A stretch of DNA of 64,000 nt. It comes from Taiwanofungus camphoratus. Lineage: Eukaryota; Basidiomycota; Agaricomycetes; Polyporales; Taiwanofungaceae. Of the stretch, positions 3,195 through 64,000 are shown piece after piece. Location: assembly GCA_003999685.1 (NCBI GenBank), contig CP021221.1, positions 496,001 through 560,000 of the forward strand, in the 5' to 3' direction. The notes below the pieces were generated by a model, which was not told the origin of the DNA, did not search any database, and saw only the letters and a program-made list of their open reading frames with translations. Position numbers and translations under genes: made by a program. Position 1 is the stretch's first letter. Each line of letters opens with the position of its first letter.

Positions 3195-6100
3195 TTAATC
3201 AGTGGATTCCTTGCATAAGGCCATCCGCATGATCTCCAACGCAGCTAAATGAAATGGCAACGTCGAATGCTGACGCATCCTCCACCTCATACGCGAGAGG
3301 ACAAACAAGTCGTGAAAATTCTGCGTGATGTCCTGGAGTGTCTTGTCCTCGGTGGCATCTATGCCTTGCATCCTACTCGGTAGCGCCTCGACAGGAGATC
3401 GTGTCAACAGTGAAGACCGCAATGAACAGGTAGTGTGCAGGCGGTGTATACGCACAACGGAAATTGATGTGTGATCCGTTCCCGATGGCACGTAGATCAA
3501 CGTGTTCGAACCTAGTGCACGTACGCTGGGGTGACTCTGCAACTGCGGTTCTTCATCTTCCGAGTCGGGGATGAATGACAGGTCTGTATGGCCTGGATTG
3601 AAGGGACCGGAGCTAGAGAAAGAACTTAGAGAAGGGATGCATGCTATTCCTGCACAAGAAAAAAGGGCGTAGGTAGAATAAGACGTGTCTGCAAGAACAG
3701 TGCCAGAGCCTGTACGAGGGGGGGAGCGCGTGGATGATGGTATGGGCGAAAGCGCGCATTTACCATTGGTACCATTATTAGTAGCCTGTGCGAGGAAAAT
3801 CCAGGGATTTTCATGCTCTACTGAAAGGAGTGTAATATGCATAGGGGGAGTCTCCATGGAACACGCAGTTGAGTCAAAATGGGTAATCCAAGCTGTGAAA
3901 ATATTGAATAGCAGAATCGTCAGCGTCGAGAAGCGAATATCATTATAAAAACACTTGCCATCGAGTTCACTGCTTCTCAAAGACCCCAGCTTCGCCACGA
4001 CAATCTTCCACTCTACATTCGCCCGTGCAGCAAAGTCCCGAACAAATCCCCACACTTGGTTCACGACGAAGGTCTCCACTGATTCGCCCGGTAATAGCCA
4101 TGCCCCTAGTTCATAAGCCTCACCTCGGGCGTCCACACACGCAGCAAGCACCCATCGTCCACAGGGGGTTGTCTGATAGCCAACATGCAGTAAGGTGTGT
4201 CGATCTACGACGTCCAAGGAGTTCAGGTGGGGTTCAAGAACGAAAGTCACACGAGCACCATGGTCTGGGAATGGATACTGCGCAACACCTGTAGAGACCA
4301 AAGGACGGGCGAGTGCGAAAGCGGGGGCGCGGAAGTAACCACGTTGAGGAGCTAGACCTGGAAGAAGCGCACGCGACATAACGCGTTGCACGGGTAAAAG
4401 GACGCGGTCGTACACACTTTCAACAAATGGCTCGAGCCCTACGTGACCCGCACGCGGATCAGTAGGTCCACCAGTAATAAGGGCATCAGGAACAAAGTGA
4501 AAGAGGATTTGCATATCGCCATGTGCCTTGGTCACACGCTTGACAGCCGAAAACAGGTGGCGAAGAATTGGGGAAGTGAGAGCAATAATAGACGGCGGAG
4601 TGACGATGTAAAAAACAAAACTTAAGCTCGGCTGGGCAAGTCCAGCCACAAAGCTGGCTACAAAGACAAGTGAGATGATAGTTATCTAAAATTGCAAGTG
4701 ATGATTGCGTACCGAGGGTCTTCCTGAACGAGTCGAAGCGTATTGGAACAAGGCCTGGTCGGGTACAACTGGTGCACATTCCAGCAGAGTGTGCCCCAAA
4801 ATTCTTAGCCTACAGACCTGATGAGTATCTGCAATCATACTCCTGCGTGAAACATACCGAGTATGCTGATGACACCTTGTTTAGCCATTCTGCTATTTCC
4901 ATTTGTTTCTCTTCGTCTGACCCTTCAAAGAACACGAAGGCAGTCACATCTTTCTTCCCACCTCGAGGACCAAGACCAAGCTTCTCCCAGAATCGCAGAG
5001 CGGTCGGGAGAACTTGGATCAAGGTATCAGATTTGCCTACCGTGAACATAGGAGATTCCAATAAGTGAAGTGACGTTATAGAGGCATCTTCACCACTCTC
5101 CCGCTGAGCAGAATCTGCATTCTCATTTTAGCCGAATTTAAGACATTAGACGGTTCTATAACTCACCTAAGCCAGACAACATCTGAAGACTGACCGGAGA
5201 TTGTGCCATACCAATGCTCCCTAAAAGCCGGTTGACTCTCTTGACGTCAGCTTGCCATACCTCCGTAGGAGCTGGCACTTCCAGAGATGCTGTGGTCGCA
5301 TTCACTTGCCACGCATCCGCCCATATGCTATTCTCCACTACTTCCTTTACGAGGATCTGCGCTGCTGCTTCAAGAGACTTCAACTTCTCCGACGTCAATC
5401 CTAATACGGCAGCAGGAGATACTGGAGTGGGCACAGATACTGGTGCAGTTCCGCCAGGAGAATTACTGACTACGGCACCTGGATGTCTAAGCGGCGCACT
5501 CAAAGGGAGAAGGTGGGAATGGTGAAAGTGAGTCTGGAGTAGAGAGGGCCCCATGGGAAGATATGATGGCGGAGGGGTAGAAGGACGCAATATGGTCGCT
5601 GCATCGTCTTCGTCCGGCCAGCGCTCCTCATCCTCAGAGTCTGCTTCCGATTTGGTCTCGTCCAAAGCTGGTGAAGGTGCACTCTCCCACTCCTCATGCT
5701 CCCTCACCCATGACGGCGACAACTTAACCTCACGTGCGCCCTGGTCGAAACTCTTCCGCTTGACACCAATCAACTTGCGAACAACACCGACACGTGGATC
5801 AGTTGCAGCACTATACTTGGACTTCCATCCGCTCTGCAGAGGAAACAGAGAGAAAAGGGGAACAGGCTCGGTACGATCCTCTTCGTCCGGTGGACTCGGT
5901 AATGCAAACTTCCCGACAGCATATTTGCCGTCAGCGAGCCTATGACTAATATTGAACGGGATAGGGTCAAAGATACTGGGACCTAGGCTCAGTTGGTCTG
6001 ACTTACGGCCCCCGCTAGGCTCGTAGTAATCTGATAAATGCACTGTAGGTGTTGTGGGCCCTGAATGCGAGGACTGTGTCTTTGTCGGTGAAGGAGGTAG

Positions 6101-9100
6101 CAGGTCCGGGGCGGGAGGGACATCTGAATAACGGAAATCAATGGCACGTGGTGTGAACCCTTCTCCAAGTGCTGGACCCGTCCATGGCGACGGTTGAGTG
6201 AGAGTAACTGTAGGTGGTCCAGGCCCAGAGTCCACACCAGGCAAGGGAGAAAGACCTAGAGGTGCCGATCCTGGGGTCGGCATCAAACCTGCACCCATAT
6301 TCAGAGGGTTGACGACCGTGACCGAAGGTGTGGAAGTAGTCGCGGAGCGGGCCTGCGCTACGGGAGCGTCGAAAAAGTTGAAGTCATCATCTGTGAAGAC
6401 ATCGAATCCATCATCTAAATCGAAGCCGCCCACACCATCCCCTCTAGAACGCGTACCACCAAAAGAGTCTATGTTCATGTTGAATCCCATGTCATAATCC
6501 ATATTTATATCCACGAATTCATTAGAGGGCTGCGTCCAAGAAGCCTCAAACCCGCCAAATGGATCAAATGTGGACACAGCATTTTGATCATTTTCATCAG
6601 GAGGTCCCAAAGATGCGGGCACTGCACTCAGATCGCTTTGTTGTGGTTCGATCTTAGTATCCAAAGAAATTTGCATCGCATCGTCGTTAGAAGGTAGGGT
6701 AGCCCCAGTCTCCGGAGGAGAAAATAAAGAATCCGTCGAGTCTTGCGGCATGAAGGGCGAACGTATATCTTGATCCACCATGGTCGTGTTAGTTATTGGC
6801 AAAGAGAGGGGGCTCGCTACTTGCTCAGCATTCATACGATTCGGCGCACTTGGCCTTGATATAGGTGGTGGCGGCATCGGAACAGATCCAGGCCCACTTG
6901 TGCTGCAAGCCCGGCCGCGCGAGCTCGCGCCCTCTCTTTCCCTTCTGATCCGCTCACGCTCTCGTTCTCGCTCCTTTGCGACGGCATCGACGTATCCACT
7001 GATCTCAGCCGCGACTTTATGCACGTCCCTCGTATAAGGCTTCGTAGACAATGACAATGTGCGAAACGCACGGAGAGATATTGTAGTGGGAGATGACGTC
7101 AAGGTAGGCAGGCGTCGGGAGGCCGAAGGCAAGAGATGCTCTCTGTCAGCGGGTTGAGGAATTGGTTGATGTAGCGGGGTAGCTCCACGAGTCCCAGCCT
7201 CCGTTGATGTTGAAGAACCCAACTTTGAGCCTGACAGACTCGGTGGGACCGCCGGTGGTGGCGGTGGCGGAGATGCCTGCAGCTGTGCTGGCAGTTCTGG
7301 AATATACTGGAGTGAGGTCCTAGCATGCATTGATGGGGAGCTTGCGTGATAGGAGAGGCAGAGTCGAACAGGCCAGATGACAGGCATTCCCTTATCCTCG
7401 CCCTGCTTGTTCTGCACGGAAAGCCAGGCAATGACGTAAGTAGGAGTGTTTCCGTTGGCGGAGGTAGTAGAAAAACCGCTCTCCAGCGAGCCATGGACCG
7501 ATACACCCTTCCAATCGCCCACCCCCAGACCCAGAAGCGCTTCGTCGAACTGGGAAGTCAGTGCGGAAGTGGGTCCTCCGTAAGTATTCATATAATAAGC
7601 AGGAGTGCCATGCGGAAGTAGGATGATAGGAGTCCCTTGGGGCAGAGGCAAGTTACTATAGAGTGGCAGATGACACGTAGGGCGGAGGACGGGGTGTATT
7701 ATGAGGCGTGAGGGTGAAGACTGAGAAGAATGGTGAGACAAGTGCACTTCGAGATGACAGTAGATGAGTGGACGACTGCGCGCATGATGTTCCCAACCGG
7801 AACCCCATTCAGAAGAAGTAGAGGTAGGACCAAGGAGGAAGCCATCTTTTAGCCTCACAGCGGGTCTGCAATTTGAGCTGCCTTTGGCGGCCTCCGCGAT
7901 TTCATCGATGAGTCTGCCGCGCACGGCTTGTAGGAACTGGTGAAACGGTCGACGGAGCGGCTGCCGTGGAAGAAGATGGGCGGATGAGGGGGCATTAGTA
8001 GGCTTTCGCAAAAGATTGAGGCAGTTGGGACATGGTGTAAGTTGAGTAGAGCACGTGATCGAACATGGATATATAGTCGCAGGCGTGAAAGTCGAGGAAT
8101 CTGTTACTGCAATATGTCGTACGTCAGTAAATCACGTCAAAACAATGAAAGCGCCGAGGACGCGCTCAGGCTAGCTAGATTTTGGAGTCCCTTGAGAGAC
8201 GGGGAATGCAGTAGACCACTCAGGCGGATAATATATGCGATGCATTTGCAAGGAAAATGGTCGCAAGCCCCCATGAACATATCCTACAACTGTCCAATTT
8301 CCACCAGCCCTGGCTTATCGAGGACTGCCCATTTCGAGCACATTAAACCTGGTTTGCCATCTACTCACCATGAACCCGGGTCTCATTGGCATACAGCCTG
8401 ACCAGGAGTTAAAACGCTTTTATGATGCCATACTGATAAACCAATGAAACCGGATTCCATTTGTCATACGCCACGGTATCTCGGAAGCGGGTGAGAAAGC
8501 ACGGAAACACGGGTTCCCATGCCCTGAGTGAAGCCAGACTACGGTAGCCACCCAGGACGGGTCGCCTAGCACGACAACTGGCTCCAAAGCTACGCCTTCA
8601 GGAAGAGAAGCTGATGAAGTTAGATACTCACATACTAAACCATCGAATTGTAATGCCAACAAAGCAACATGGGATTCCGAAGTCCGAACAGTGGAACAGA
8701 ACGCGAAGACATAGAGTACAGCAAGATCCTTGGATATGTAAACACTGGGTAAGAGGGAATCCAAGATTGTGTGGTTCGCATTCCGCTCCAGTATCCTCCT
8801 ACGGGCAATTTCGATGAGGTTCAGCTGATCGGATGTATTAGTGGCAGATGCGCCAGTAAATACTGAGTAGGCGATAAGGGGTTGGTCGGGGAGAGGGATT
8901 ACTGAAGCGAGTACAGGTGATGCCAAAGATATGGGCGGTGGAAATTGGGCCAAGAAAGATGACCCAGTGTTGTCCTGAGGTGCTGCATGCGGCTTTGCCG
9001 CCATGGAGGGTGCGTACAAGGGCGAGCAAGGCTTCGGAACTATCGAACGGCCAATTTGAATGACTCCGATACCATGCGTGAACCTAAGTGAACGGCCGTA

Positions 9101-9379
9101 AGACCAGCTCGGAGTATCGGGAACCGCTGTCCAGACAATCAGAGTAGCCTGCTCCGATCCGCAAGAGATAGACCAGGCGTGGCCATGCAGATCACTCCCC
9201 AGAACGTGACAGTTCAGGAAGAGCCTCAGCTTGCACCTGCTTGCAGCCTGCGCCGGAAGAGTAGTGTTCGCGAGGCCGGCGTCTTCACTCGTGTCACCTC
9301 GATGTATATGTCGACAACAACGTGCGCTGCTTTGATCTGCGCACCAATAAGTACTCTTCACTTTACACCAGAATGGCAC
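3195..9379 (-). CDS. MED13: Mediator subunit 13 (MED13/Srb9/Ssn2), kinase module
   Basis: Large multi-exon gene. The N-terminal Med13 domain is in the exon at 8420-9379: HAWSISCGSEQATLIVW, then IEIARRRILERN and LPSVYISKDLAVLYVFAF, matching the conserved LFVNGDL-type segment. A 5'-proximal middle exon runs from about 8104 to 5156 and is Ser/Pro-rich with acidic patches (DINMDYDMGFNMNID). The exon at 4810-5061 carries the MID-like segment LPTALRFWEKLGLGPRGGKKDV. The exon from 4649 carries the PIWI-like C-terminal domain (PPSIIALTSPILRHLFSAVK, DMQILFHFVPDALI, CGRWVLAACVDARGE). The last exon ends LPFHLAALEIMRMALCKESTD at 3195. MED13 links the CDK8-cyclin C-MED12 module to core Mediator and represses or tunes Pol II transcription. 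The start is unresolved: the frame is open to 9379 and an extra 5' exon is likely. Introns near 3660-3960, 4680, 5070-5155 and 8110-8420 are inferred. Confidence 0.88.
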
Positions 9380-9669: not shown

Positions 9670-12068
9670 ATGCAGTCCGTATCTCGCCCTGCCTCCACGT
9701 CCACTCGCCCCGCCTCGTCACCGAATCCAAGACCACCGACGCATCAAGTAAATACCCAGACAAAAGTATTCGATACCGCTCACGGACGGCTATTATGCAT
9801 CGCGGACATCCGTGGCCGCCTTTCTGCTCTCAATGACCTCGCGAGGGAGGCGAATGCGTCTGCTATCATCCATACGGGTGATTTTGGCTTCTTCGGTGTG
9901 TCCTTATTCAGTTGCTATCAGATTTCTTGTCTAAGACTCGACGCTTGCAGAGGCGTCAAGTCTCGACAGAATCAATGACAGAACACTCCGCCATCTCACA
10001 ATGTACTCCCCGCTCATCCCGACTGCACAACGTAACCATCTCCTCGCCCCAGAAAATCCGCCCTCCGTTATCCGCCAGACTGTCACCATTTCGCTGCTGT
10101 CCGAATTCCCTCTACTCCTCACTGGCCAGATCAAGCTGCAGGTGCCCGTCTTCACCGTCTGGGGTGCCTGCGAGGACGTCACCGTCCTCGAAAAGTTCCG
10201 CGCAGGACAGTACGACATTGACAACCTTCATGTGATTGACGAGGCGACGACACGGTGCCTCGATATCGGCGGCGTCAAACTGCGTTTGTTGGGTCTTGGG
10301 GGAGCGCTTGTACCACACAAGATGTTCGACAACGGGGACGGCAGCGCGACGATCGCTGGCGGGCAGGGAACGATGTGGACGACGGCGCTGCAGCTCGGTG
10401 AGCTCGTGGACACCGCCCAGCGCGTGTTCGATCCTACCGAAACGCGGCTGCTCGTCACGCACGCGAGCCCCGGGCGCGAGGGTATCATCAACCAGCTCGG
10501 GCTTGTGCTGAAAGCGGATCTTACCATCTCTGCGGGTCTTCACTTCCGATATGCGTCATCGTACAATGAGTTCAGCGTGCAGGGCGACTTTGAGGGTCTG
10601 CGCCACAAGTTCGTTGTTGGCAAAGACGGTTTCGACAAAGTCTGGGATAGTGTCAAGACTCAGGTGGATGCGGTCATTGATGACCATCAGCGGGTATTGC
10701 TGGATAAGGCGCTCTCGGTCATTGAGCGTATACCGCCACCCACCAATCAGCCTGCGCCTAATGGACAATTCCCTCCAGAAGAGCCGGCATGGAAGAATTG
10801 TTGGAACTGGAACCTGTGCGATGCAGCTTATGGTTCTCTTGTTCTCGATATAAAGGATGGCAGGGTCAGCGCGGAGTTGAAGAGCCAAGGCACGTTCCAT
10901 CAGACTCCATTCAACTGGACTCACTGACTTCATTCTCCTCTAGGGTTCAACTACGCATACCGCCGCACGATTACACCTTCCACGACCGCGCCCACTCCAA
11001 GCTCGCAGACATCTGCTCTTCTGGCGGGCGGTGGTGGCACGCAAACGGCGGCAACGCCGACACTTTCAACCAGAGGCTCAGGCACGCCCGTCGCGGCTGA
11101 GAAGTCGCTCCCGCCACACCTCAATCCTGCCAACAAGTCAAAACCTTCTACGCCCCCTCCCAACTCAGCAGGCTCAGGCCGCGAGACGCCGAAGGAACCC
11201 AGGCAGAACGGGACCCCCAACAGCGCCGCGGCAGACAGAGCAGAGCGGGAGCGCGCAAAACGGGAACGGAAGAAGGAGCGCAAGCAGCAGGAGCGGGCGG
11301 AGCGCGAGGCGGCCACGACGAAGGAGAAGGAGAACGGAGCCGCCGGCACGAGCAACCCTGCGAGTCCGTCGCCTGACAAGAACGAGGCCGATGCGAGCAA
11401 TACACCGCCGCAAGGGAAGTCGGGCAAGGGAACGCCTGATATCCAACGTGATGTGAAGTCGCCTGAGGATGGTGTGGCGTCCCCCGCGACCGAGAGCACA
11501 GGTATGAGGACCCCCACGAGCAGAAGACCACCTAGGAACCCGTGGACAATCTTCATGCGGATGAATGTACCTGCAAACGAGCAGGAGGTGCGCGACTTTT
11601 ACGGGGATGCGAAGGCAGGGGTGAGTGAGGACATCAGCACAGCACAGTACTTTTGACCTTAAAGTCACGTTAGATTACGCGAGTGAATTACCCGCAAAAC
11701 TTCGCCGGCCGTGCGCAGAAAATGGTGTACGTGGAATTTGGAGACGAGGAAGCTATGAAGGCTGGTCTCGAGAAGCAGGGCGAGGTGCGTCTCATCGTGG
11801 CTATTTCGATCAATATATCCTCACGGTATCACAGAAACTTAAGGACATGATTCCGGACATGAAGCAAGCAACGGACAAGGAATCGCGCAACGCCGAGAAT
11901 GGCGGCCCGCCAAGAGGCTTCGGTGGACGTGGCGGACGAGGAGGTCGGGGAGCCTTTGCTGCGAGAGGATTCGCGGCGGCAGGGCTGACGAAGAGTGCCT
12001 ATTCTGAAAAGAGGGCGAATGGCGACGCCTCAGCGGCCGAGGGATCAAAGGCGTCTGAGGGGTCGTGA
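9670..12068 (+). CDS. DUF2433 metallophosphoesterase-like protein with RRM-like and RGG C-terminus
   Basis: Residues from the start (MQSVSRPAS...) lead into a calcineurin-fold core: RLLCIADIRGRLSALNDLA and IIHTGDFGFF, then LQVPVFTVWGACED and TRLLVTHASPGREG. The canonical metal-ligand motifs are altered (ADIRG instead of GDxHG), as I would expect for DUF2433, so catalysis is doubtful. After an intron the chain continues FNYAYRRTITPS, a long Ser/Pro and Lys/Arg/Glu-rich linker with a basic coiled stretch, and then an RRM-like unit (PWTIFMRMNVPANEQEV, FAGRAQKMVYVEFGDEEAMK). It ends with an RGG-type run (GFGGRGGRGGRGAF) and stops at 12066-12068. Introns: about 9898-9950, 10890-10943 (GC-AG, needed to avoid the stop at 10925), about 11621-11674 and 11784-11831. 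Inference: an RNA-associated protein using a degenerate phosphoesterase fold. Confidence 0.75.
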
Positions 12069-37112: not shown

Positions 37113-40100
37113 TTAGGTCACTGCGAAAAGAATAGCAAAAACCAGTACAAATATGGTCATCCTCTGTTTCCTGTTCATATTCTCCTCGTTCCTGGGCGCA
37201 TCACCTAATCGATCGGTGAACCAATCAAAACTCATGCCAATAAGTCGGAACTCCTTCCTCTCAATCATTCCCACAAGACGTCCCCACTCACTGAAAATTC
37301 GTATGAACGTACTTTCTATAGTGGCCATGAATAACGAGAGGCCTGTGACTGTCATCTTGATAGTCGCGGTTCTCTGGACATCCCGCCATAGATGCCGATA
37401 TAGATCGTGCACGATATTGGTGATGAAGACAGCGGTAGCCATCTCAATGCCCGTCGACGACAGGAGGAAAGACCATTTTGAAGAGACCAGAGACGCCACA
37501 CATCCGGCTAGAACAACAACGCCACATAAAAAGAGTAGTTCAGCACTGTTAGGAGCGGCCTCTCGGTAGGTAAATTCAGGGTATCTCCCAATGAGGCCAC
37601 TGTCGCCTTTAGACCACATGTAAAATCTCCAATACGATCTTTTACCGTTGTTCCACCAGGGGTGAGTGACAACCACGTCCGGCGCAGCATGGAAACCTCC
37701 ACCACCGTTTTTAATCGAGAAGTTTCTCTTCTTGCGGCAGAAATCGATGTCCTCGCCACCACCGGTCTTTGGAAATTCTGGGTCGAATAGGACACCGTCC
37801 TGTATATTACGCCGTGCGATGAGGTTGGCAGTGACACCCCAAGGCAAATCGGTATCCATCCTCATCTTGGTGGCTATGTCCCAGAAGTATGTCACGCCGG
37901 CCAAGTGGATAGCGGCAGTGGAGACAGTGTCCGCCGATGGGAAGTGTGCAGTACCAACGAACCCGGCTGCTTCAGGATGAGCCCGTATGGCCTTTTCTGC
38001 CTCGATCAGCACGTTTGCATCTGGAGAGACATCGTCGTCTAGAAAGTGGACCCACTCCGCCGACGATTCCTGTAGGCCTCTATTACGAGAAGCTGAAGCT
38101 CCAAGGTTGACCTTGTTTACCCGAATGCGGACGTCAGGTCGGTGTGCATATTTGTCCATTAGCTTGGAAATATTGGGGGAGGTGGGATCATCAATGATGA
38201 TAATAAACATGACTGTACAAGTTCTAGATGGCTGCAGCGCTAGAAACACATCAAGATAGGATAAATTGACCCTATAACAAGGGATGATGACATCCAGAGT
38301 TAGCTTGCGTTGGACACTTGAGCTTGACCTCCGGAGCCAAGCTTCGACAGTAGTCGTGGCACTATCCAGCAGATTAAATGTCCATCCTACGGCATGTACT
38401 TTCTGATATCGAGCGCCTTCGCTTCCACCGAGCCTGTTGCATATTCTGGAACTGATCATGCGCGAGCAACCCCAGCGCTGATAGAGCTGGAAGAGAAAAG
38501 GGTCTCCATCCTGGTTAATGAAGGACGCTGGGATGACTTCTCCGCCAAAAATTTCCATATGCGTTCGATGGATGATGGGAAAAGTGGGCATACCCGGAAA
38601 GCTGGTATCTGTGAATGCCACACAGCCAAACCCTTTGGGAACAGCTTCTTCAGAGACGAAGTCAGCGAACGTGTCGCAAACTGCGGACATCCAGTTGGCA
38701 TCCTGCAGAATAACGTCATCGCCCATGAGTGTAAAATAATCACAACCATCCTGCCATGCCCGTCGAGCACAGTCACGCCAGATGGCGCAAACATGACCAC
38801 GAGGGTGCATGCAAATGAGAGTGACAACATGCAAAAAGCCTTCAGTCCGCAAGGTATCAGCGGCCTTGTTATGCCCGTTTTCGCCTAGAAGGAAGTCGTC
38901 ATCGTAGTCTATGGCCAGGTACACTCGGATCCGATAATGCTGACCGAGTCGTCCAACATCGTAAGTTGTCGTTGCCGCGAGCGAACGGGCAAAACGGGTC
39001 AGATTCACGAGACAGTCAGCCGGAGACGATGAGCCTCTCGAGGTAATAGGAAGGAGAATGGCAAATGTGTCTCCATCCGAATGCAAATCCATTTTGGTGC
39101 TCGTCTGCAATTGGAGGAGCGTCTCCGCTCGTTGTGAGTCAGTCATCCCTGACACAATACGGTTCATCTCGCTAGATATCCATTGTCCTGTCCGTTGCAT
39201 CCCTGTCTCGAGAGAAGTATTTGGTGACCAACCCAATTGTTTCAGGACAAAGGAGTTATTCGAGTTGCGAGACCCAACACCAATAGGCTTGCTGGAATCG
39301 TAGAGAAAGTGCACTTGCCCAAGGTCGAGCTCAGCACAGCGCACCGCGATCTCTGCAAGCTCCCTTATTGTCACGGCATGATCGGAACCTATGTTGACCG
39401 GCTCGCAACAGCGAGATTGAAGGAGCCGAACAATGGCATCGACAGCGTCGTCTATGAAGCAGAAACTTCGCCTTTGTAGTCCATCTCCCCAAATCTCTAG
39501 TTCCAACGGGAAGGTCCCCGCCATTTTTGCGGCGAAGGCCTTCCGAAGGAGCGCTGCAGGTGCCTTCTCACGACCCCCAGCCCAGCATCCACCAGGACCA
39601 AATACATTGTGGAAGCGGGCGATACGAATCGCCATTCGAGAAGAGAACTGAGATAAAACTTGTTCTGTATTCAATTTCTCGAGACCATACAGACCTTGGG
39701 GGCGAGGCGGAAGCTGCGCCCACACGTCTGCCTCCTTCAAAGAAACATCGACGTTCCCCTTGCCTTGGAGAGATTCCGGATAGACGCATGCGGAGGATGC
39801 GTAGAAGAAGCGTTCGACACCCACTGCAAGACAGGCCGAAAGTAAATTCATGGTCATGGTGTGATTCTCCCCATATATAGCAAAGTCATTGTCCGAATGA
39901 ATGACACCCATACCGCCCATGTTCGCTGCAAAGTGGAGGACGATCTTGACATCACACACCACACGAGTACAAAACGACGGATCGCAGAGATTGCCAAGCA
40001 TGACTTCGGCATCGGATGGCTGATCATGGTAAGAATGTGGAATTATATCTGTAATGCGGACTCTATGGCCTAAATCGCAGAGACGTCGAGCGACATGGCC

Positions 40101-40195
40101 TCCCTTTCGACATGTCAAAAGTGTGTAATATGCTATATGGCGGTAGAACTTACAATAAAACCATGACCTCCTGTCACTAGAACGAGACCGTCCAT
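37113..40195 (-). CDS. GDP-mannose 3,5-epimerase-like / GT-A / membrane GT2 fusion protein
   Basis: Two exons: 40195-40154 (MDGLVLVTGGHGFI) and 40103-37113, joined over a 50-nt intron, giving about 1010 residues. Residues 1-330 form an extended SDR epimerase. The Rossmann motif is TGGHGFIGGHVA. Catalytic residues of plant GDP-mannose 3,5-epimerase are all present: Cys120 in YASSACVYPE, Tyr153 and Lys157 in YGLEK, Lys194 in GGREKAPAA. The flanking text (FAANMGGMG, EIWGDGLQRRSFCFIDDA, EPVNIGS) also matches. Residues 355-600 look like a GT-A nucleotide-sugar fold (RVYLAIDYDDDFLL, YFTLMGDDVILQD). Residues 615-880 are a GT2 domain (LDVIIPCYR, VNLGASASRNRGLQ, WVHFLDDDVSPDA). Several hydrophobic helices follow, and the protein ends with a C-terminal anchor (MTIFVLVFAILFAVT). 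Expected role: make a GDP-L-galactose/L-gulose sugar and transfer it at a membrane. The middle-domain assignment is the weakest. Confidence 0.88.
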
Positions 40196-41473: not shown

Positions 41474-43096
41474 ATGTCCGATACCGAAACAGCACAGGAT
41501 GTCAAAGGGACGGACTACACCTTCACGTCCACCCAGGACTGGTTTTCCTTCAACGTTGACACATGGAGATTGTTGTTTCCGCTCGTCACATCTTCCAACC
41601 CTCGTGTCCTTGAAATCGGCTCGTGGGAGGGCCGTTCTGCGGTATTCCTCTTGACCGAGCTTTGCCGGAACCGAGGAGAGATCGTCTGCATCGATCATTT
41701 CGACCTGATGAAGACTGAAGCGGGGCGCAAACGATTCGCAAAGATACACCATAATTTATCTCTCACGAAGAGATCATTTCGTATCATAGACGAGTTCAGC
41801 TTCCCGGCACTCATGATTCTCCTACGAGAGGAGATGTCCTCGACCAATCCCGGATACGATTGGATTTACGTCGACGGTTCACACGAGGCCGATGATACCT
41901 TTCTCGACGGAGAACTAGCATGGCGGCTGGCAAGAAAAGGCGCCATTATCATTTTTGACGACTACCGCTGGGACAAGGAGCCAGAAAATAGCATTCACCA
42001 CCCAAAACGTGGTATCGACGCGTTCTTGGCACTGCATGCTGGAGAGTATAACCTGCTATCCAGTTCTACGCAGTACCAAGTGGTCCTCCAGAAATCCTCA
42101 GAGATGCGTATTGGATTTCTCGTGAAGGAACAACTTGAGAACGGACTAGATGCCGCGCTCGGATACGGCATCCATATTGCGCTTACTATCGACTCTACGT
42201 ACGCGATGGCCGCGGCGGTCGCCATCCGCAGTGCCGCCGCGCACACAAGCGGTAGAATCACATTCTATATTATAGATCTCGGACTTACTGATGAAGACAA
42301 GGACAAGATTAACAGGTCCATGCCCGAGAGGGCAGATGTTACTCTTGTCTTCATGAGCCCGCCGGAGGGTAGTATGGCTAAGGACAGCGATGCCACATGG
42401 GCTAAAATCAACATGATCCCTATCCTTCCTGTCGAAAGGGTCCTCTACCTCGATGCAGACGTACTGGTGCGAGCCGACTTGCGGGAGTTATGGGACATCG
42501 ACTTGAAGGGCAAACCTATAGCAGGGGTGACGGACGTCGGATACCCATTAGGCCATGAAGATATACAGAGAGGCCCATATTTCAACGCTGGCGTCCTCTT
42601 GATGGATTTGACCGAGATCAGAAGAGAGTTCGAGCAGTTAAAAGAGCTCTTTGGCAGCTTCGAGAACACTAGGTACCGCGACCAAGACGCGCTTAACACC
42701 CATTTCGCCTCTAGCTGGTTACCATTGGAGCTGAAGTGGAACGCGCAGGGCCTGGGAACCTACGCCAGGCTCCCTTCCATAGATCGTGACACCCTTGAGC
42801 TGTCAAGCATGCGAGACCCGGCCATTGTTCACTTCACCGGGCCTGTCAATCCAGACATGGAACATGTACTGAACCCTTACCTTCAGCCGTACACAGCTAA
42901 ACCGTGGGGCTACGCTGGCTCCCCTGGTCATCCATTCAGAGAAGAATGGTGGGGCTTGCTCGAAATGACAGCATGGAAAGGGTGGAGGACATCGAACGAA
43001 TACCGCGAATATTGCTCCAAAGAAAAGAAGAAAGCGATTAAGATCGCTTCTGACAAATTTGAAGTAATGTTGAAGGAGAGAAAAAGTATACGGTGA
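41474..43096 (+). CDS. Methyltransf_24 / GT8 glycosyltransferase fusion protein
   Basis: A single uninterrupted exon of 540 codons. Residues 40-210 form a class I SAM-dependent methyltransferase: VLEIGSWEGRSAVFLL (45-60) is motif I, EIVCIDHFD motif II and YDWIYVDGSHEADDTFLDGE the acidic motif, followed by GAIIIFDDYRW. This suits the Methyltransf_24 group, which includes glycan O-methyltransferases. Residues 230-490 are GT8: IHIALTIDSTYAMAAAVAIR, FYIIDLGLTDEDK, WAKINMIPILPVERVLYLDA with the DxD metal motif D327-A-D329, then YFNAGVLLMDL, QDALNTHF, LELKWNAQG, AIVHFTGPVNP and AKPWGY. No signal peptide or membrane segment is seen, so it probably acts in the cytosol. It is divergent from the epimerase-GT gene. 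Inferred partner in the same glycan pathway; acceptor and methyl target unknown. Confidence 0.88.
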   Translation: MSDTETAQDVKGTDYTFTSTQDWFSFNVDTWRLLFPLVTSSNPRVLEIGSWEGRSAVFLLTELCRNRGEIVCIDHFDLMKTEAGRKRFAKIHHNLSLTKRSFRIIDEFSFPALMILLREEMSSTNPGYDWIYVDGSHEADDTFLDGELAWRLARKGAIIIFDDYRWDKEPENSIHHPKRGIDAFLALHAGEYNLLSSSTQYQVVLQKSSEMRIGFLVKEQLENGLDAALGYGIHIALTIDSTYAMAAAVAIRSAAAHTSGRITFYIIDLGLTDEDKDKINRSMPERADVTLVFMSPPEGSMAKDSDATWAKINMIPILPVERVLYLDADVLVRADLRELWDIDLKGKPIAGVTDVGYPLGHEDIQRGPYFNAGVLLMDLTEIRREFEQLKELFGSFENTRYRDQDALNTHFASSWLPLELKWNAQGLGTYARLPSIDRDTLELSSMRDPAIVHFTGPVNPDMEHVLNPYLQPYTAKPWGYAGSPGHPFREEWWGLLEMTAWKGWRTSNEYREYCSKEKKKAIKIASDKFEVMLKERKSIR

Positions 43097-51201: not shown

Positions 51202-53787
51202 CTATCCTCCAGTCCGCGTGCGTTTTCGGGTCGTTCGTTGTTTCGCCGGTGGCTGTTCGCTGTTCGCTATTGTAGGCGAGCCCTCTTCTGGCCGCTGAGC
51301 TTTACGTTTGAGATTTGCATGAGGCATGGACGGGGTTGTGGGCCCGCCTGGTGTCCGTGCTGCGACCGGCGTCGACGCCGACGCCGACGCTGGCGTAGAG
51401 CTGGATGCCTCGGAGGATGGTGGGGGCTGCGCCTTATTCTGTTTTGAAGGGCCGTCAACGGGCTGTGGCGCATTTTGGGGTGTGTTGGCCGGAGGGCCTT
51501 GTGGTGGATTTGAGGGACCCGGGGCGTTTGGGTAGGCAACGGATGGATTTGGAGGCACGCCATTCTGACCTTCGAACATGCCGCCGCCCACGCTTCCACT
51601 GCCGCCACTACTACTACTACTGCCGCCCCCTCCTCCACCTCCTCCGCCTCCGCCTCCTCCGCCCCCTCCGCCTCCACCACCAGCGCCGGGGCCATGGCTA
51701 TTGGGATGGCCACCGGCACTGCTAATAGCGGCCTCTCGCGCTCGCTGCTCTCGCAGTCCATGAGCAAATTGAGCCAGCGCGTCTGCAAAGTAGCAAAAAA
51801 ATCATGTGTGAGCGACGTCAAACTGCCACCAGCGCCTGAGCGCATGTCAGAAACAGGGACGCACCCACGGGCCCCAAGCGCTTCTCCATCGAGAACTGGA
51901 TGAGATCCGACATCTGCGCAACACTCTCGGCCAGCTGCAGCCGGACAGGACACCGTCAGCGCGCACAGCAGGGGCGAGAGAGCACACGGCGCACGTACCT
52001 CCAGACAGCGCATCGTCGCCTGGGGGATCCCAAACGCATTCACGGGCTCCGAGGGGATGAACGCGCGCTCGAGCGGCTGCTTCATCTCGACGACCTCGAA
52101 GTCCTCCGGGCGCGTGATACCCATCGCGGCCATGTACGGCGAGCGCGACGCGCGCGTGCCCTCGATGCGCTCGACCATGATCATCTTCTCGTGCATGAGC
52201 GAGTCGAACTGCAGACTCTCGATCTTGAGCGTGTACCCCGCCGCGCCGTGCGGCGGGTTCATCACCACAATGATGTGCGCGGTGAGCGGCCCGCGGAGCG
52301 TGACCGTGTACCCGTTCGTGTATTTGAACGTCCACAGCGCGTAGAGGCACTCCACGACGGCGTGCCCCTGGCCGATCAGCCGTTCCCGCGCGCCATCCAG
52401 GTTGATAGACATGCTTTTTACGCCAGATTGGCTCGTGACGAGGAAGAACCGCGGGAGGATCGGGACACCGACTTCTGCCACGCGTTAGACAAGTGAGACC
52501 ACCGAGCACGCGCACAGCGGGACACAACGCACCAAAGGGCTTTGCCTCGTTCCGCTGGTTGTCCTTCCACAGCGTGAACTTCATCGTCGCCTTGTTCGTG
52601 AAGTACTCGCCCACGATCCTCTGCCAGTGCGCGAGCTGCAGCTTGTCTTTCTGTGAACGCAGCCAGTGAGCCCTCCCCGCACGCATCACAAGAGCGGAAG
52701 CGCGACGGCACTGACGTATTTCGACTCGCTCGCGAGCACCCCGCTGAAGTGCAGCAGCCGCGTCACGCCCTGCCCCAGCCCGACGATCAGCGTCGCGTTC
52801 CTGCGCCGTCCGCGGTCAGCCCACGCGCGCCACACAGCATGCGCAAGAAACGCAGCCGCACAAAAAGAAGGCACTCACATGCTCAGCGCACGCCCGACGG
52901 CAGACTGCGTCTGCTGCGAGGGCGGCTGCGGACCCTCCTGCTGACTTGGCGGCTGCGGCTGCGGCTGCAAGGGCGCGCCCGATGGCGGCGGCGGCACAGG
53001 CCCCTGCCGCTGCACAAGCTGTACCTGGTGTCCCTGCGGCGGCTGTCCTGGCGGCGGTTGCTGCTGCTGCTGTCCCGGCGGCCCAGGTTGCTGTGGCGGG
53101 GGGTGCGGCCCCGGGCCCTGCAGCGAGTTCGCGCGGCCAGGTATCATGCCCGGGCCCGGGCCAGGGCCCATGCCCATATTAGCGTTGACGTTCATCGGCA
53201 GCGGCAGCGGCGCCCCGCGCGGCGTGCGCTGCTGCCCGGCCTGCTGCTGCTGCTGCTGGGGCGACTGGCGCGCGAGGCCCTGCTGGCTCTGCGGACGCGC
53301 GCCGGGGAGCGCGTCGGGTGGCTGCGGCGGCGCGCGCGGAGACTGGTGGTGCGGTAGCTGCTGCTGTGAATGGGGGAAAGGAATCGAGCTCATCGCGCCC
53401 GGGCCCGCGTGCGACGGCGGGCGCGCAGGCGCAAAGGGGAAAGGCTCGCCAGCAGGCCCGGGCGCGGGCGCGTGGCCGCCCATCTGCTCGAGCATCTGCG
53501 CGGGCGTGAAGAGGCCGCGCGCGGCGGGGCCGTCCGCGGGCGGGCGCGGCGACGCGGAACCGGGCGCGAACGCGAAAGGGCCGCCTGCGCCGGGGGGCGC
53601 GCGGGGGACACCGCCCATGCCCATGCCGCCCACCCCGCCGCCACCGCCGCTGCCCTGCGGGAAGTCGAGTGCGAACATGGCGTTGTCTGGCGAGAGCTGT
53701 GCGCGCGCGGGGTCGCGCGGGAGGCCCGCGGGGGGATGCGGGGACGGCTGGTGCTGCTGCGCGTGCGGGTGCTGCTGCTGGAGCAGG

Positions 53788-53835
<48 letters not shown>

Positions 53836-54977
53836 TGCTGATGGTGTGGGTGCTGTGGGTGCGGCGGGTGCTGCTGATGCGGGTGCTGTTGCTGGTGCGG
53901 GTGCTGCGGGTGCGCCGGGTGGTGCGAGAGGCCGAAAGCGCCCTGGTGCAGCGTGCTCGGGTGCGGTGGAGGCTGCCCGAGGCCGCCGAGCATCTGCTGT
54001 GCCTGCGCCTGCGCCTGTGCCTGCGCGCTCCCGGAGCGGCCGGGGTGCGCGAGCGCGCCGTTGACATTCATGCTCATGCCCACGCCCACGCCCGCGCCGA
54101 CGCCGACGCCCATGGGGAGGTGCGGCCCGGGAGCGCGCATGCCTAGCGGGTGCGCGTCGGGCCCAAGGTGTGGGTGTTGCTGCTGGTGCTGCTGGTGCTG
54201 GAGCTGCTGTTGGTGCTGCTGGAGCTGCTGATGTTGCTGGTGCTGCTGCATCCGCATGCTGTTCTGCTGCTGGAGCGCCGCCGCCTGGCGCAGCTGCTGC
54301 TGCTGGCTCGCGCTCATGCCGCCCCCGAGCCCGCCCATGCCCACACCCATGAGCGGGCCGGGCTGCGATGCTACGCGGCGCATCTGCGGCTGGTGAGGTG
54401 CGCCGCTGGGGAAGCCCATCCCGCCCGGGAGCTGGTTCATTCCACCGCCGCCTTGGAGCTGACCCATCCCGCCACCATGCATCGGCAGCTGGCCGTGGAG
54501 CGCCAGCGGGGGACGCTGCTGCGCAAGGAGCTGTTCGCGGCGCTGTAGGTTCGCCTGCGCCATCTGCAACGGGAAGTTCGGCGGCGCGCCATTGGCCCCG
54601 CCGCCGCCGCCTGCCCCCGAGTTTGCGCTGGCACCAAGATTTGCGTTTGGGTTCGTGTTTGGGAGCGGGTTTGGGTTGTTTGCGTTGGGGTTCGCGCCCG
54701 GATGCGGGTTCAGGTTCGCGCCGAGGCCACCATTGGGATTCGCGTTCGCGTGTGGGTGCGGGGGCGGTGCAGGGCTCGCTCCCGGGTGCGGGTGTGAGTG
54801 CGGGTGCGAATGATTGGGCGGCGGGTTCGGGGCGTGCGCGGGGGGCGGCTGGCCGGGCGGGAGGAGCGGCGGCGCGTGCTGCTGCGGCAGGAAGTGCGGC
54901 GACGGCAGCCCGAGCATGCCCTGAGGGAGGGGCCCGAGGCCCTGCTGCTGCCGGAGCATGTCCGGGTGGACGTTCAT
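51202..54977 (-). CDS. LIM-domain-binding (LDB/NLI) co-regulator, PtaB/Mfg1-like
   Basis: Starts at 54977 (MNVHPDMLRQQQGLGPLPQG). About 700 N-terminal residues are Pro/Gln/Gly/His/Asn-rich, with a polyGln run encoded at about 53770-53842. After introns the LDB dimerisation domain follows: RALSMRNATLIVGLGQGVTR, FSGVLASESKYVS, KLQLAHWQRIVGEYF, TNKATMKFTLWKDNQRNEAK, FLVTSQSGVKSMSINLDGAR, AVVECLYALWTFKYTNGYTV, TLRGPLTAHIIVVMNPPHG and KIESLQFDSLMHEKM. Then EPVNAFGIPQATMRCLELAE and LDALAQFAHGLREQR. The C-terminal part has a polyGly run (encoded about 51605-51690), a Ser/Ala/Pro linker and a basic end (PPAKQRTTRKRTRTGG). Fungal LDB proteins pair with Flo8/Som1-type factors to control filamentation, adhesion and development. 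The linker lengths are unusual. Long frames on the opposite strand here are mirror images of the repeats. Confidence 0.88.
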
Positions 54978-55984
54978 GTGCGAATGGGTAAGAGGCGTGG
55001 TGCGAGGGCCGGTGGGTCCGCTGAGATGCCTTGTGGGTGGAGGGTTAGAGCGAAGATGGGGGTGGATGAGGACGTAGTCAAGCTCGGATTCGCACTCACG
55101 GATTCACGATTCACAGCTCGCGGCTCACAACTGAGACTCGGACTCTGACTCTGGACGAGCGCTGAGGTTGCGGTTGCTATCACGGTAGTGGGATGCGGGC
55201 AGGGCGCAGGGCGGGAGCACGGGCGTGCGCTGGTACTCGTTTCTGCGTTCGCGTTTGCGGCCGCGCATGCAGGAGGAGAGGAGCGACGAGCGCGACGAGC
55301 GGCGGGCTAGGCAGCGGCGGGGAGTCTGTCGCTGCTGGCGACCGGGCTGCGGTTTGCTCGGGAGCGCGGCGGGGAGGTGGGGCAGACCCGCGAGGAGAAG
55401 CGAGGAGGACGCGGGGCGATAAGACGGGCAAGGGTGCTCGTCGCTGTTGTGGGCGGCGGCGAGGCGAGGTGAGGCGACGGCGAGGATGAAAGGGAGAGGC
55501 GAGAGGAGGAAGGGGAGGACGAGGAGTGTGGCGGGGCGGGAGAGGGCGAGGGGCGAGCGTTATGGGCCTGTGGACGCTGGACGCACTCACACGCTCAGAC
55601 TCGGCGGCAGTGCGTCTGCACGCCACGCGTCGCGCGAGATCCCGATCCTACACGTAAATCTTATCTACCGGCCCTTTGCTCGCTCGGGCTCTGCGTGCAT
55701 GTATGTAGATATGTCTGTATGACTGTCTGTATGTAAACGGTGATGTTTTATTCTGCATGTCTGGGCAACGACGGGCGCAGAGGTCAATAAGGCGCTGGGC
55801 AGCTTTGTGGCCAGGCCACCGCAGGCGCTAGCGCATCTGCCCGGCAAGGACCCCGGCAATCCCTATAGAAGTCCAGTTCCGCTTTTTCGGAGTTTTTCTG
55901 CATTGAACGTCATAAAAATCCTGCGAGCTCCTGAGAGCAGCAGAAATGACAGTAGGTGTGTAGTGATCACTAGATCTAAGAATC
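54978..55984. other. GC-rich 5' flank of the LDB gene
   Basis: Purine-rich/GC-rich leader (55180-55560) and a gtatgt/gtctgtatg-rich stretch near 55700. No gene supported on either strand. Confidence 0.4.
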
Positions 55985-57035
55985 CTGTCCCCTTTTAATG
56001 TTCTGCAGGTCTTTGGTTCACCTATTTATTGTATAATATCACCTTTTTGATGAATGCATCCACAATATCCAGCAAAGCATTGAGCTGCAGAAGGGCCTCT
56101 AAGCTTTGTGTTAGGCTTGAGGGTGTGTATATGTAAGACTGTCTCACTCTTACCACAGTTTCTCTAATGTGCATATCAAGTGTCTGGATTCTGGTATAGC
56201 AGATCTCAGAATTGTGCCCTTTTAGTGCATATCAGACAGTCACCACTTATAGTATAATATTGTCAAAGGGCAGTATAAGATCGGAATTCATAGACTGTGA
56301 TGTAAGGAGGAGTTGGATACAGTGTACAAGCATCAGCAAAACCCATCTATTACTTTTTTTCTTCTTTTTTGTGCTTTCTGTTCTCTTGTCACTATAAAAA
56401 CAATAAAACAATAAATTTTTAAGAATATTTTGTTTAAAAATGACTAAAAATGATTTTTATTGGAGTAGATTTGTTATAATACAATTGGCATTTTTCTGCA
56501 TTAAATGGTTGTGAAAATTGCATTAAAGATGCTTTTTTACACAGACATCAAAAACTCTTTCAAAAGAAGATCAATCAGGATTTTTTTTTAAAGATTCATA
56601 GCTGTACTAGAGCTTGTCATCAGCCACTCTCAATATGTATTGAAATAAATCTACTCTTGTCAAAAGTACATCGGCAAAATCTACAGTATCTGTTGCTTTT
56701 TTTCTTCCTTTTTTGTGCTTCTTATTCAAAGAACTATAAGATAATAAGATGATAATTTTTCAAAGATAAAATTGACTAAAAATGGTTTTTGAAAGTAAAA
56801 TGTTTTTCAAGTAGCAAACAACAAAAGACCACAGGACTGACAAGACATTTGTTTGAAAAGCTTTTTTTTCTTTTTAGTTGCTGTATTTATTTTCTAGTCT
56901 CACAGATCTACAGCAAATGAGCCCTGACAATTATGGCAAACATGGAGCAATTGACAAATAGTCTTACCATCCTTATTTAAAGATCTGTACGAAAATGGGT
57001 AGCCACTACACTGCCATTCCTAACACAGGGGATCG
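55985..57035. repeat. AT-rich island with internal diverged direct repeats
   Basis: About 1 kb of strongly AT-rich DNA lies abruptly between GC-rich flanks. Two diverged copies about 345 bp apart match: at 56330-56475 (a T-run with cttcttttttgtgctttctg, then aaaatgactaaaaatg) and at 56675-56805 (ttccttttttgtgcttctta, then aaattgactaaaaatgg). No ORF of note, no clear terminal inverted repeat. It may be an inserted non-coding element or an AT-isochore remnant. Confidence 0.6.
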
Positions 57036-61415: not shown

Positions 61416-63928
61416 TCAGGACGGCAGCCGCGTGGGGTCGAGCTTGGTTGTCCACGACTGCAGCTCTTTGGGGCTGGGTGCGGCGAGCGCATAAGAATTA
61501 GATGATGTGAATAGGGTGAAGGTAAACTTTTTCTGCACGCATGGCGCATCAGTATCCCGTCTCTATTCGCGGAGGAAGAGTACGGACCCCGAGTAGAGCC
61601 TCCATCTCCGGGTTCCTCTCGATGTTGACGCCATTCAGGTTGATAACGCCGGTCTCCTCCACCTCGTTGGAGTGTGCATACATATGCAAATACGGCCTGC
61701 ACCGAATCCCATCAGCAATCTCAACAACGCACCGCGAAAATAAGCCCTCATCGACGCACCTCCGCAGGACGAACCAGCGCCTCTCCCAGACGTTCTCGTT
61801 CGCGTCGACCATGATCATCATGTGACCCTTCTTCGTTGGTCCGTCGCTAGATAGCAGATAGGATCGGCGGCGCGGGCCAGGTCAGACAGAGATCATCAAT
61901 CCGAGGACGTGCCGACCTACTTTCGCGGGACGACCTTTGTCGACGACGTGAGCTTCACAGAATCGGTGGACTGCGTGCCCGACGTCCTGCCCGACTCGAC
62001 GCTGGACTCGTCAGGCTCGACGGGGTCTTGGCTGATCACGATCTGCAAACGGCGATATCGTCAGCACAGAAACATACAACGAGAGACGCAAGCTAACCTC
62101 TCCGCGGTGGCCGAACCGCTTCTGCCACAAGGCCAACGCCTTCCGGAGCAGGTCCTCTGAGGCCCACACGACAGCATCGGTCTGCGTGACTCGGCTGTTC
62201 GGCGACGACGCAAGGATGACTCGGATCGCCTGCACGTCCGCCGCGCGGCGCTCCATCGAGACCAACCGCGAGTAGTCCTCCACCACCGAGACACCGCGCG
62301 GCCTCCATACTCCGAGCGCCTCCTCGCCACGGACATATTTTTCGGCGGTATCGAGCCGCCAGAGGTCTTTTGGCGACCGCGTTAATGGAGGTGACAATCG
62401 GACGGTAAAGACGGTACTTGTCTTGGGGATAATCCTTGTTGAGCCGAAGACAGTCAGGAAACGAGAGGGCGGGCGCGCATCGCGCGTCTGGATGTTGACC
62501 GCCGCGTCCATAGTAAACTGCACCGGCTCAGCGCATATCTCCACGGCCACAGACCAACTTAACTGCAGAAGCACCCGCTGGTTGGCTCCTGTCACACGGT
62601 TCAACAAAATCGAATCGTGCACACTGGAATCCCAGAGTGCCTCAGCTGTGAGAGAACCTGTCCCGTCGGACTTGTACTCGACGACTTGCTGCTGCAGGAG
62701 GGGCAGGGTAACAAGCGGCTTGGAGGACGCGTCGTGAAGGCGGCCTTTGGCGTCCAACAATCGTACGTTGCCCAGACGTATTCGCATGACTTCTGTCCAC
62801 GGAAGTTGACGGCCCGAATTTGAAGTCAAAGACAGCACGATGCGCCGTTGCAACCCTTGATGTAGCATAAAAGCACCAGGGTCCAAATTTCCTTGTGACA
62901 CAACGGAAACGGGGACATAATTCCCATCTGGTGCCAACTCGCTGATTTGAAGCCAGGCGACCACATCGTGAGTTTGTTCCATCACGAAGTCCGTTTCCGA
63001 CCTTCGCATGAGGGGCAGACTCGGCGGCTTGCTATCCGGGGTAGACGCGCCATTGGTTGGTGTCCGTTGTTCTCGAAGCTCATCCCAACGTTCCATGCGT
63101 TCCAAATATGTGGGCTTCAACCGGGCGAAGAACTCAATCGGTGCATATCCTTGGCGCAGGTACATGAGGACTTTCGATGATGCGACAACGGAGAAGCTAC
63201 GCCTGAACTTGAGATCTGATATTGACGACGCGTCCAAGTCCACAGCAGACGAGGGATAGACCTCTTCAGCTGACAGTGAGGGCCCCATGAATGAAGATAG
63301 GCGGACTTGCATATGTACAGAAGAGAACTCATGGTGTGAGATGCCTTTCACAGAATCAACACTCAACACGAAGCTAATTTTACTCCCAGGAGGAACCGTC
63401 CCTGGAACGGGTGAAGATGCACGAGTGGAGGTCGCGGATGAATTGGCATGCTTAGGGTGCAGGATAACATTGGCAATCTTGACGTCGATGCGACAGGAGC
63501 CCATTGCCTCCGCAGTATACCGACAGAATATGGGCACGATGGAACTGGACGATAGTCGGCGTGAGAGAGGTGCTAATGACATTAGTGCGTTGCCAATAAA
63601 AGAGTATTCAGGCGGTGGCGAGTCATAGAATGGCTCTTCGGAGGAAAAATGTTGGGAGTAGGATGGTCGATCTATGAAAGTGGTCAAGTTGCGCATTCGT
63701 TGTAGTTGCTGCTGTAGGCGATCCAAAGACCAAACATATATGGCATCGTGGCGCTTGTCCAGAACTTTGATAGCAACCGACGGCTGCGTTGCAGACGCAA
63801 GTACTGGATCTGCAACGTCACCGAATTGATCGAGTCCAGCAATCGTATCAATGGCAGATGCAGGTGCTGCCAGTGAACCACCCGAAGCGACAGTGAAATT
63901 GTACACCACATCCTTCCTGAACTCCTTG
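61416..63928 (-). CDS. Unc-104/KIF1-type kinesin-3, C-terminal part (5' end beyond window)
   Basis: The window holds only the post-FHA part; motor and FHA domains should lie beyond 64000. The large exon (63928 to about 62097) opens KEFRKDVVYNFTVASGG and includes YVWSLDRLQQQLQRMRNLTT and FDV-like KIF1 text such as ILHPKHANSS. It continues VLMYLRQGYAPIEFFARLKP, the DUF3694-type segment (QLPWTEVMRIRLGNVRLLDA), and SLTSNSGRQ. Later pieces read PKDLWRLDTAEKYVRGEEAL and LALWQKRFGHRGE. The C-terminal PH domain follows: GHMMIMVDANENVWERRWFV, LRRPYLHMYAHSNEVEETG, INLNGVNIERNPEMEALLG and ELQSWTTKLDPTRLPS, stop 61416. Unc-104 kinesins carry early endosomes or vesicles to microtubule plus ends, and the PH domain binds phosphoinositides on the cargo. 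Confidence 0.88.
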
Positions 63929-64000
63929 CTATTGTGAAGACACAGCACATCAGGTCAACAATGTATTAGATACCATTCAAATGAACTCTTGCCTAATCAC

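Follow-up and report, generated by a model that had tools for sequence, protein, structure and literature searches.

A fungal protein joining a GDP-mannose 3,5-epimerase to two glycosyltransferase domains in a single chain

In the fungus Taiwanofungus camphoratus (Polyporales), one gene encodes a chain of 1010 residues in which a GDP-mannose 3,5-epimerase (GME) domain is followed by two glycosyltransferase (GT) domains, GT1, for which a GT-A fold is predicted, and GT2, and then by hydrophobic stretches. The gene occupies positions 37113-40195, minus strand, of the window, by which we mean the whole stretch of 64,000 nucleotides that was analysed (positions 496,001 to 560,000 of contig CP021221.1, from an assembly of 33.2 Mb in 15 contigs). 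Active-site residues are conserved in all three domains, and the architecture is of long standing. We read the chain, with a probability of about 0.6, as a membrane-associated, self-supplying L-hexosyltransferase. The enzyme types are themselves familiar; their combination is one that we did not find described, and it points to an L-sugar branch left out of fungal surveys.

The reading frame opens with an ATG at 40195 and the stop codon ends at 37113. A single GT...AG intron of 50 nt (40153-40104) interrupts the Rossmann motif; splicing restores VTGGHGFIGGHVARR and gives 3033 nt, that is 1010 residues with one terminal stop. From residue 15 to the stop, 996 codons remain open, for which the random expectation is (61/64)^996 or about 1e-21, so that the frame did not arise by chance. 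A protein deposited for the same species, AcV7_007840 (P0001), is also 1010 residues long and differs solely by V380M. Along the chain come an Epimerase match (PF01370, E 1.2e-30), the middle part, a Glycos_transf_2 match (PF00535, E 2.6e-13) and the hydrophobic stretches, the membrane helices having been called from hydropathy alone. The features, all on the minus strand, are the following.

40154..40195 (-): exon 1, 42 nt; residues 1-14, with the start of the Rossmann strand (VTGGHGFI); agrees with deposited P0001
40104..40153 (-): intron, 50 nt, GTAAGT...AAAG; its removal brings back GxxGxxG and the sequence of the deposited protein
37113..40103 (-): exon 2, residues 15-1010 and the stop; holds all three domains
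39126..40195 (-): GDP-mannose 3,5-epimerase domain, residues 1-340; the span includes the intron
39786-39788 (-): Cys120, epimerase domain
39687-39689 (-): Tyr153, epimerase domain
39675-39677 (-): Lys157, epimerase domain
39564-39566 (-): Lys194, epimerase domain
39267-39269 (-): Arg293, epimerase domain
38331..39074 (-): first glycosyltransferase domain (GT1), residues 358-605; predicted GT-A fold; LMGDDV (Asp477), INQDGDP
37566..38303 (-): second glycosyltransferase domain (GT2, PF00535), residues 615-860; DDD 703-705, GGGED 795-799, HPWW
37410..37556 (-): hydrophobic stretches, probable membrane helices, within residues 864-912, from hydropathy, both of the protein itself and across 78 full-length homologues
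37116..37169 (-): hydrophobic C-terminal tail, residues 993-1010, possibly a further membrane-associated helix, judging from the tails of 12 homologues

That all three domains form one chain, as the initial annotation had it, is borne out by the single 996-codon exon that carries them; its call of a fungal origin holds as well. Among the best 120 of the 412 homologues found, the sample to which all counts of conserved residues below refer, lengths run from 881 to 1359 residues and both Pfam domains are listed. An artefact of annotation or assembly could be suspected from Cerrena, Fibroporia, Agrocybe and Lentinula, where adjacent split gene models occur. Against it stand the open exon and homologues of about 1000 residues in many independent assemblies, and this explanation, nearly refuted, is hardly credible. 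The split models are probably a matter of annotation.

The first domain scores 230-234 bits against five solved GME sequences, versus 84 bits against the next family, GDP-L-fucose synthase. Counting positions from the alignment, Cys120, Tyr153, Lys157, Lys194 and Arg293 correspond to Cys145, Tyr174, Lys178, Lys217 and Arg306 of Arabidopsis GME, and passages of PMC6678494 and PMC8787198 set out what C145, R306, Lys and Tyr do in catalysis. Each of the five is invariant in the homologues (120/120), which includes the Cys/Tyr/Lys/Lys set on which the first identification had leaned; Ser118 is kept in 117, the other three having Thr. As summarised in part of PMC8787198, the catalytic base is Lys in GME versus His in GDP-fucose synthase, and the residue beside the Cys is Arg versus Lys; the fusion has Lys194 and Arg293 at the GME positions. 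In a tree of 41 rows, the 13 that are fusions group as a single clade (100/100) nested in the GME branch (99/96), the bootstrap being not yet settled; four GDP-fucose synthases and five other short-chain dehydrogenases/reductases (SDRs) fall outside that branch, and L120, entered as a non-GME SDR, groups with the GMEs. A tree of 61 rows concurs, its 27 fusion rows making one clade (100/100). The stand-alone protein P0183, which appeared there as sister of the fusions (96/96), was not resolved in the 41-row tree with its larger set of outgroups and was not used. Given this placement and the GME-type catalytic residues, the domain is, as far as its sequence tells, a GME both in ancestry and in its active site. 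A grouping with ordinary non-GME enzymes would have refuted the initial annotation, and the tree gave the opposite. The GME part of the original label 'plant-type GME' stands; 'plant-type' proved too narrow. Plant rows form a clade of their own to which the fusions are not joined, the listed stand-alone relatives of either origin, plant or bacterial, are similarly near (roughly 39-47% identity), and GMEs abound in bacteria and viral contigs too.

Is the domain still doing what other GMEs do? A long stem, 0.9-1.09 changes per site, leads to the fusion GMEs, as would be expected had the epimerase drifted towards another product, whether chiefly GDP-L-gulose or some other GDP-sugar such as a single-epimer product, or towards another NDP-hexose substrate, and GDP-L-gulose is also yielded by GME itself according to a passage of PMC6678494. 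Such drift is improbable, the five catalytic residues being unchanged and the flanking motifs WGDGxQ, GREKAP and SRNS/D largely conserved. Loss of catalysis altogether, leaving a structural or sensing role, is more improbable by far. It could draw on the first glycine of the NAD motif, which is absent from the alignment in 48/120 rows. However, these rows are gapped at that point, most simply through missed first exons, since the intron splits the motif here. Once spliced, the present gene has the motif G9-G12-G15, 71 of the 72 rows that are not gapped there have Gly9, and the catalytic set is invariant.

In the transferase half, GT2 is plainly of the family that its label announces, PF00535 reaching 50.7 bits over a cut-off of 23.3, with both DDD 703-705 and the ED pair E798-D799 in 120/120 homologues; this agrees with the early call of a GT2 third domain. 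GT1 gave no Pfam family, and its sequence matched no solved chain, at E<=5. Here the structural model carries the assignment: a GT-A fold with an acidic DxD-like metal motif is confidently predicted, in line with the 'GT-A-like' middle domain first proposed. As a sign that GT1 and GT2 are duplicates of each other, their hhalign match is weak (probability 5.4), with the DD motifs in register. The neighbours of both domains, by structure and by sequence, use many donors. The epimerase might then be active and the GTs use something else (GDP-mannose, UDP-sugars), the fusion serving localisation or regulation and GDP-L-galactose feeding another route, for instance to ascorbate-like compounds. That the two-GT module also stands by itself in some fungi, in an alga and in a bacterium speaks for this alternative. 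We consider it unlikely: retention of the fusion throughout many orders of fungi argues that the product is consumed where it is made, and parts of PMC4396506 put opisthokont ascorbate on the GULO route, with ascorbate analogues in fungi.

A self-supplying L-hexosyltransferase, the reading we prefer, would work as follows. The N-terminal domain would bind NAD+ and convert cytosolic GDP-D-mannose to GDP-L-galactose, with GDP-L-gulose as by-product, by oxidation at C4, epimerisation at C5 and C3, and reduction at C4. At least one of the two GT-A domains would take up this donor, made at the site of its use. The C-terminal helices would anchor the chain, and the epimerase and both GT-A domains would probably be cytosolic because there is no evident N-terminal signal; the acceptor would probably be a lipid or a growing glycan at the cytosolic face of the membrane. 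By analogy with bifunctional synthases, two GT-A domains in one chain suggest a two-sugar repeat, and the two GTs, if they polymerise rather than make single additions, would jointly build a hetero-oligosaccharide or polysaccharide bearing L-galactose or L-gulose. Taken further, mushroom-forming and some arbuscular mycorrhizal fungi may make a so far undescribed L-galactose- or L-gulose-heteropolysaccharide through a single-chain synthase, in which the donor, formed from GDP-mannose by the chain itself, passes to two coupled transferases. Such a branch of nucleotide-sugar metabolism, absent from present surveys of fungi, is a tentative extension that we hold with well under even odds.

Several points weigh against this proposal. 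The two-GT module occurs without GME in an alga, in a verrucomicrobial metagenome-assembled genome (MAG) and in several fungal proteins, and therefore its donor need not be a GME product. The structural matches, tied with one another, carry no donor specificity. L-galactose in mushroom glycans was not found reported in the literature searched. Gene fission is a less probable but possible account of the split adjacent models. Finally, co-occurrence of the module and GME in the MAG, considered as support, was dropped: GME is present in 25/49 genomes searched in that verrucomicrobial family, and the co-occurrence is therefore uninformative.

The distribution of the fusion makes it a conserved fungal family, on the sequences compared, and not a peculiarity of one genome. 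Most of its named relatives are mushroom-forming fungi, and the named rows among the best homologues are what we take to be Agaricomycetes of many orders. A GME C-terminus followed by the same two-GT module is also found in two Glomeromycotina, which are arbuscular mycorrhizal fungi: Racocetra persica (P0320) and Dentiscutata erythropus (P0322), the latter a partial model from which the start of GT1 is seemingly absent. For the GME part of P0320 the highest score against a fusion is 80 bits and that against a named or typical stand-alone row is 64, but P0147, a fragment of 247 residues that may be a relative from the same Glomeromycotina, gives 91. Without GME, the module is met in one streptophyte alga, Klebsormidium nitens, in gene models of Rhizophagus and Endogone, in several proteins from fungi and in the verrucomicrobial MAG; no GME domain was detectable in P0356 (Klebsormidium), P0303 (Rhizophagus) or P0314/L012 (Verrucomicrobiota). 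Fungal two-GT proteins of about 650 residues (P0248, P0249, P0269 and others) likewise have no detectable GME and come from species groups (Rickenella, Athelia) in which the fusion is present too; these shorter proteins may be paralogues using a donor made elsewhere.

In bacteria the module is rare. Of the loci considered in the genome collection (best 80 of at least 218), L012 alone spans it in full from the first residues, and 79 begin at query residue 221 or later. On this MAG contig the module lies beside another gene, presumably RadC-like (L012:774-1427 (-) and L012:1675-3444 (+)), and it was seen in 1/50 genomes of the MAG's family. The contig thus places in a bacterium a module that is met mostly in eukaryotes. 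In viral contigs (L122-L201; best 80 of at least 594 kept), GME relatives turned up in at least 594 of 600 pattern-matching stretches, with at most 68% identity to the bacterial query among the matches listed; the two-GT module gave there just three weak matches, all starting inside the GT2 half. A bacterial frame of 1325 residues (G039), a candidate for another GME fusion, was rejected as a high-GC frame artefact, its GME starting at its own internal Met. The simplest history would be that an older two-GT module gained GME in fungi, after which came transfer or vertical descent, and some losses; the module tree, a quick one, is poorly rooted and does not fix the direction or the number of events. 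In this tree the outgroup was split and several rows entered as non-fused are gene models keeping a GME remnant, so that its 12 changes (8 forced) overstate the true losses of GME.

Within its own assembly, the module has one match and GME one good match, both being the fusion gene; what follows in the GME search is a fragment at 29%, from another SDR. A GDP-mannose 4,6-dehydratase gene is present (G000:C13:453842-456085; 487.5 bits, cut-off 415), so that, to judge by sequence, the GDP-fucose branch probably exists alongside the fusion. About 1 kb beyond this gene there is another epimerase-family match, perhaps a GDP-fucose synthase. The divergent neighbour of the fusion gene (41474-43096 (+) in the window; 1.28 kb from start to start) is a frame of 540 residues with a methyltransferase domain (PF13578) and then GT8 (PF01501), and the two genes are possibly co-regulated. 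Elsewhere in the window lie pieces of Mediator subunit 13 (3195-9379 (-)), a DUF2433 protein (10001-10927 (+)), a Gln/Pro/His-rich frame of 700 residues with no Pfam domain (52875-54977 (-), GC being 67-70% across 52001-56000) and a kinesin (62011-63948 (-)).

How does this fit what is recorded of fungal sugars? The relevant part of a pan-fungal survey of nucleotide sugars in 491 taxa gives 12 monosaccharides and, from GDP-mannose, just the GMD/GER route to GDP-fucose (PMC8092308); GME, GDP-L-galactose, L-galactose and gulose each have 0 occurrences in its main text. The words 'fungi' and 'fungal' likewise have 0 occurrences in the portion of a GME review considered here (PMC8787198). A table in PMC3220709 (2011) does give two close fungal homologues of plant GME, without comment, and one deposited fungal protein (P0133) is already named GDP-mannose-3'',5''-epimerase; the presence of GME in fungi is therefore not itself unrecorded. 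No description of a GME/two-GT fusion was found in the open-licence literature, subscription journals, preprints and supplements lying outside that scope. Should the GME prove active, the sugar repertoire predicted for these fungi would have a gap, and where galactose is reported in mushroom polysaccharides its D or L configuration may have to be checked. The family suggests that some fungi may make L-galactose- or L-gulose-containing sugars hardly looked for so far. A natural fusion of donor-maker and transferase would also be a ready system for studies of substrate channelling and for the production of rare L-sugar glycans.

Among known systems, plant and bacterial GMEs (Arabidopsis, PDB 2c54/2c59/2c5a/2c5e; 8sg0; the Methylacidiphilum enzyme, in a passage of PMC6678494) share with the fusion the fold family, GxxGxxG, YxxxK, the catalytic Cys and Lys and the assisting Arg. 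Those described stand alone at about 320-380 residues, whereas the fusion GME is the first domain of a far longer chain and has a clade of its own. GDP-L-fucose synthase (GMER/GFS), the nearest other SDR family, is likewise a 3,5-epimerase, set apart both by the tree and by its His base and Lys beside Cys, as given in part of PMC8787198. The chondroitin synthase K4CP and the heparosan synthase PmHS2 have two GT-A domains per chain, as the fusion does (GT2 by Pfam, GT1 by model), and both are among the sequence matches of the GT2 part and the structural matches of GT1. Unlike the fusion, they are not known to have an epimerase domain. The fucosyltransferase WrtF (9omm and related entries), a structural match of GT1, has 7% identity and is tied within 1 Z with mannosyl-, GalNAc- and other transferases, so that no donor can be read from it for GT1. 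The unfused proteins P0356, P0303 and P0314/L012 have the whole module of GT1, GT2 and hydrophobic C-terminus, with KTGGGED and HPWW as in the fusion.
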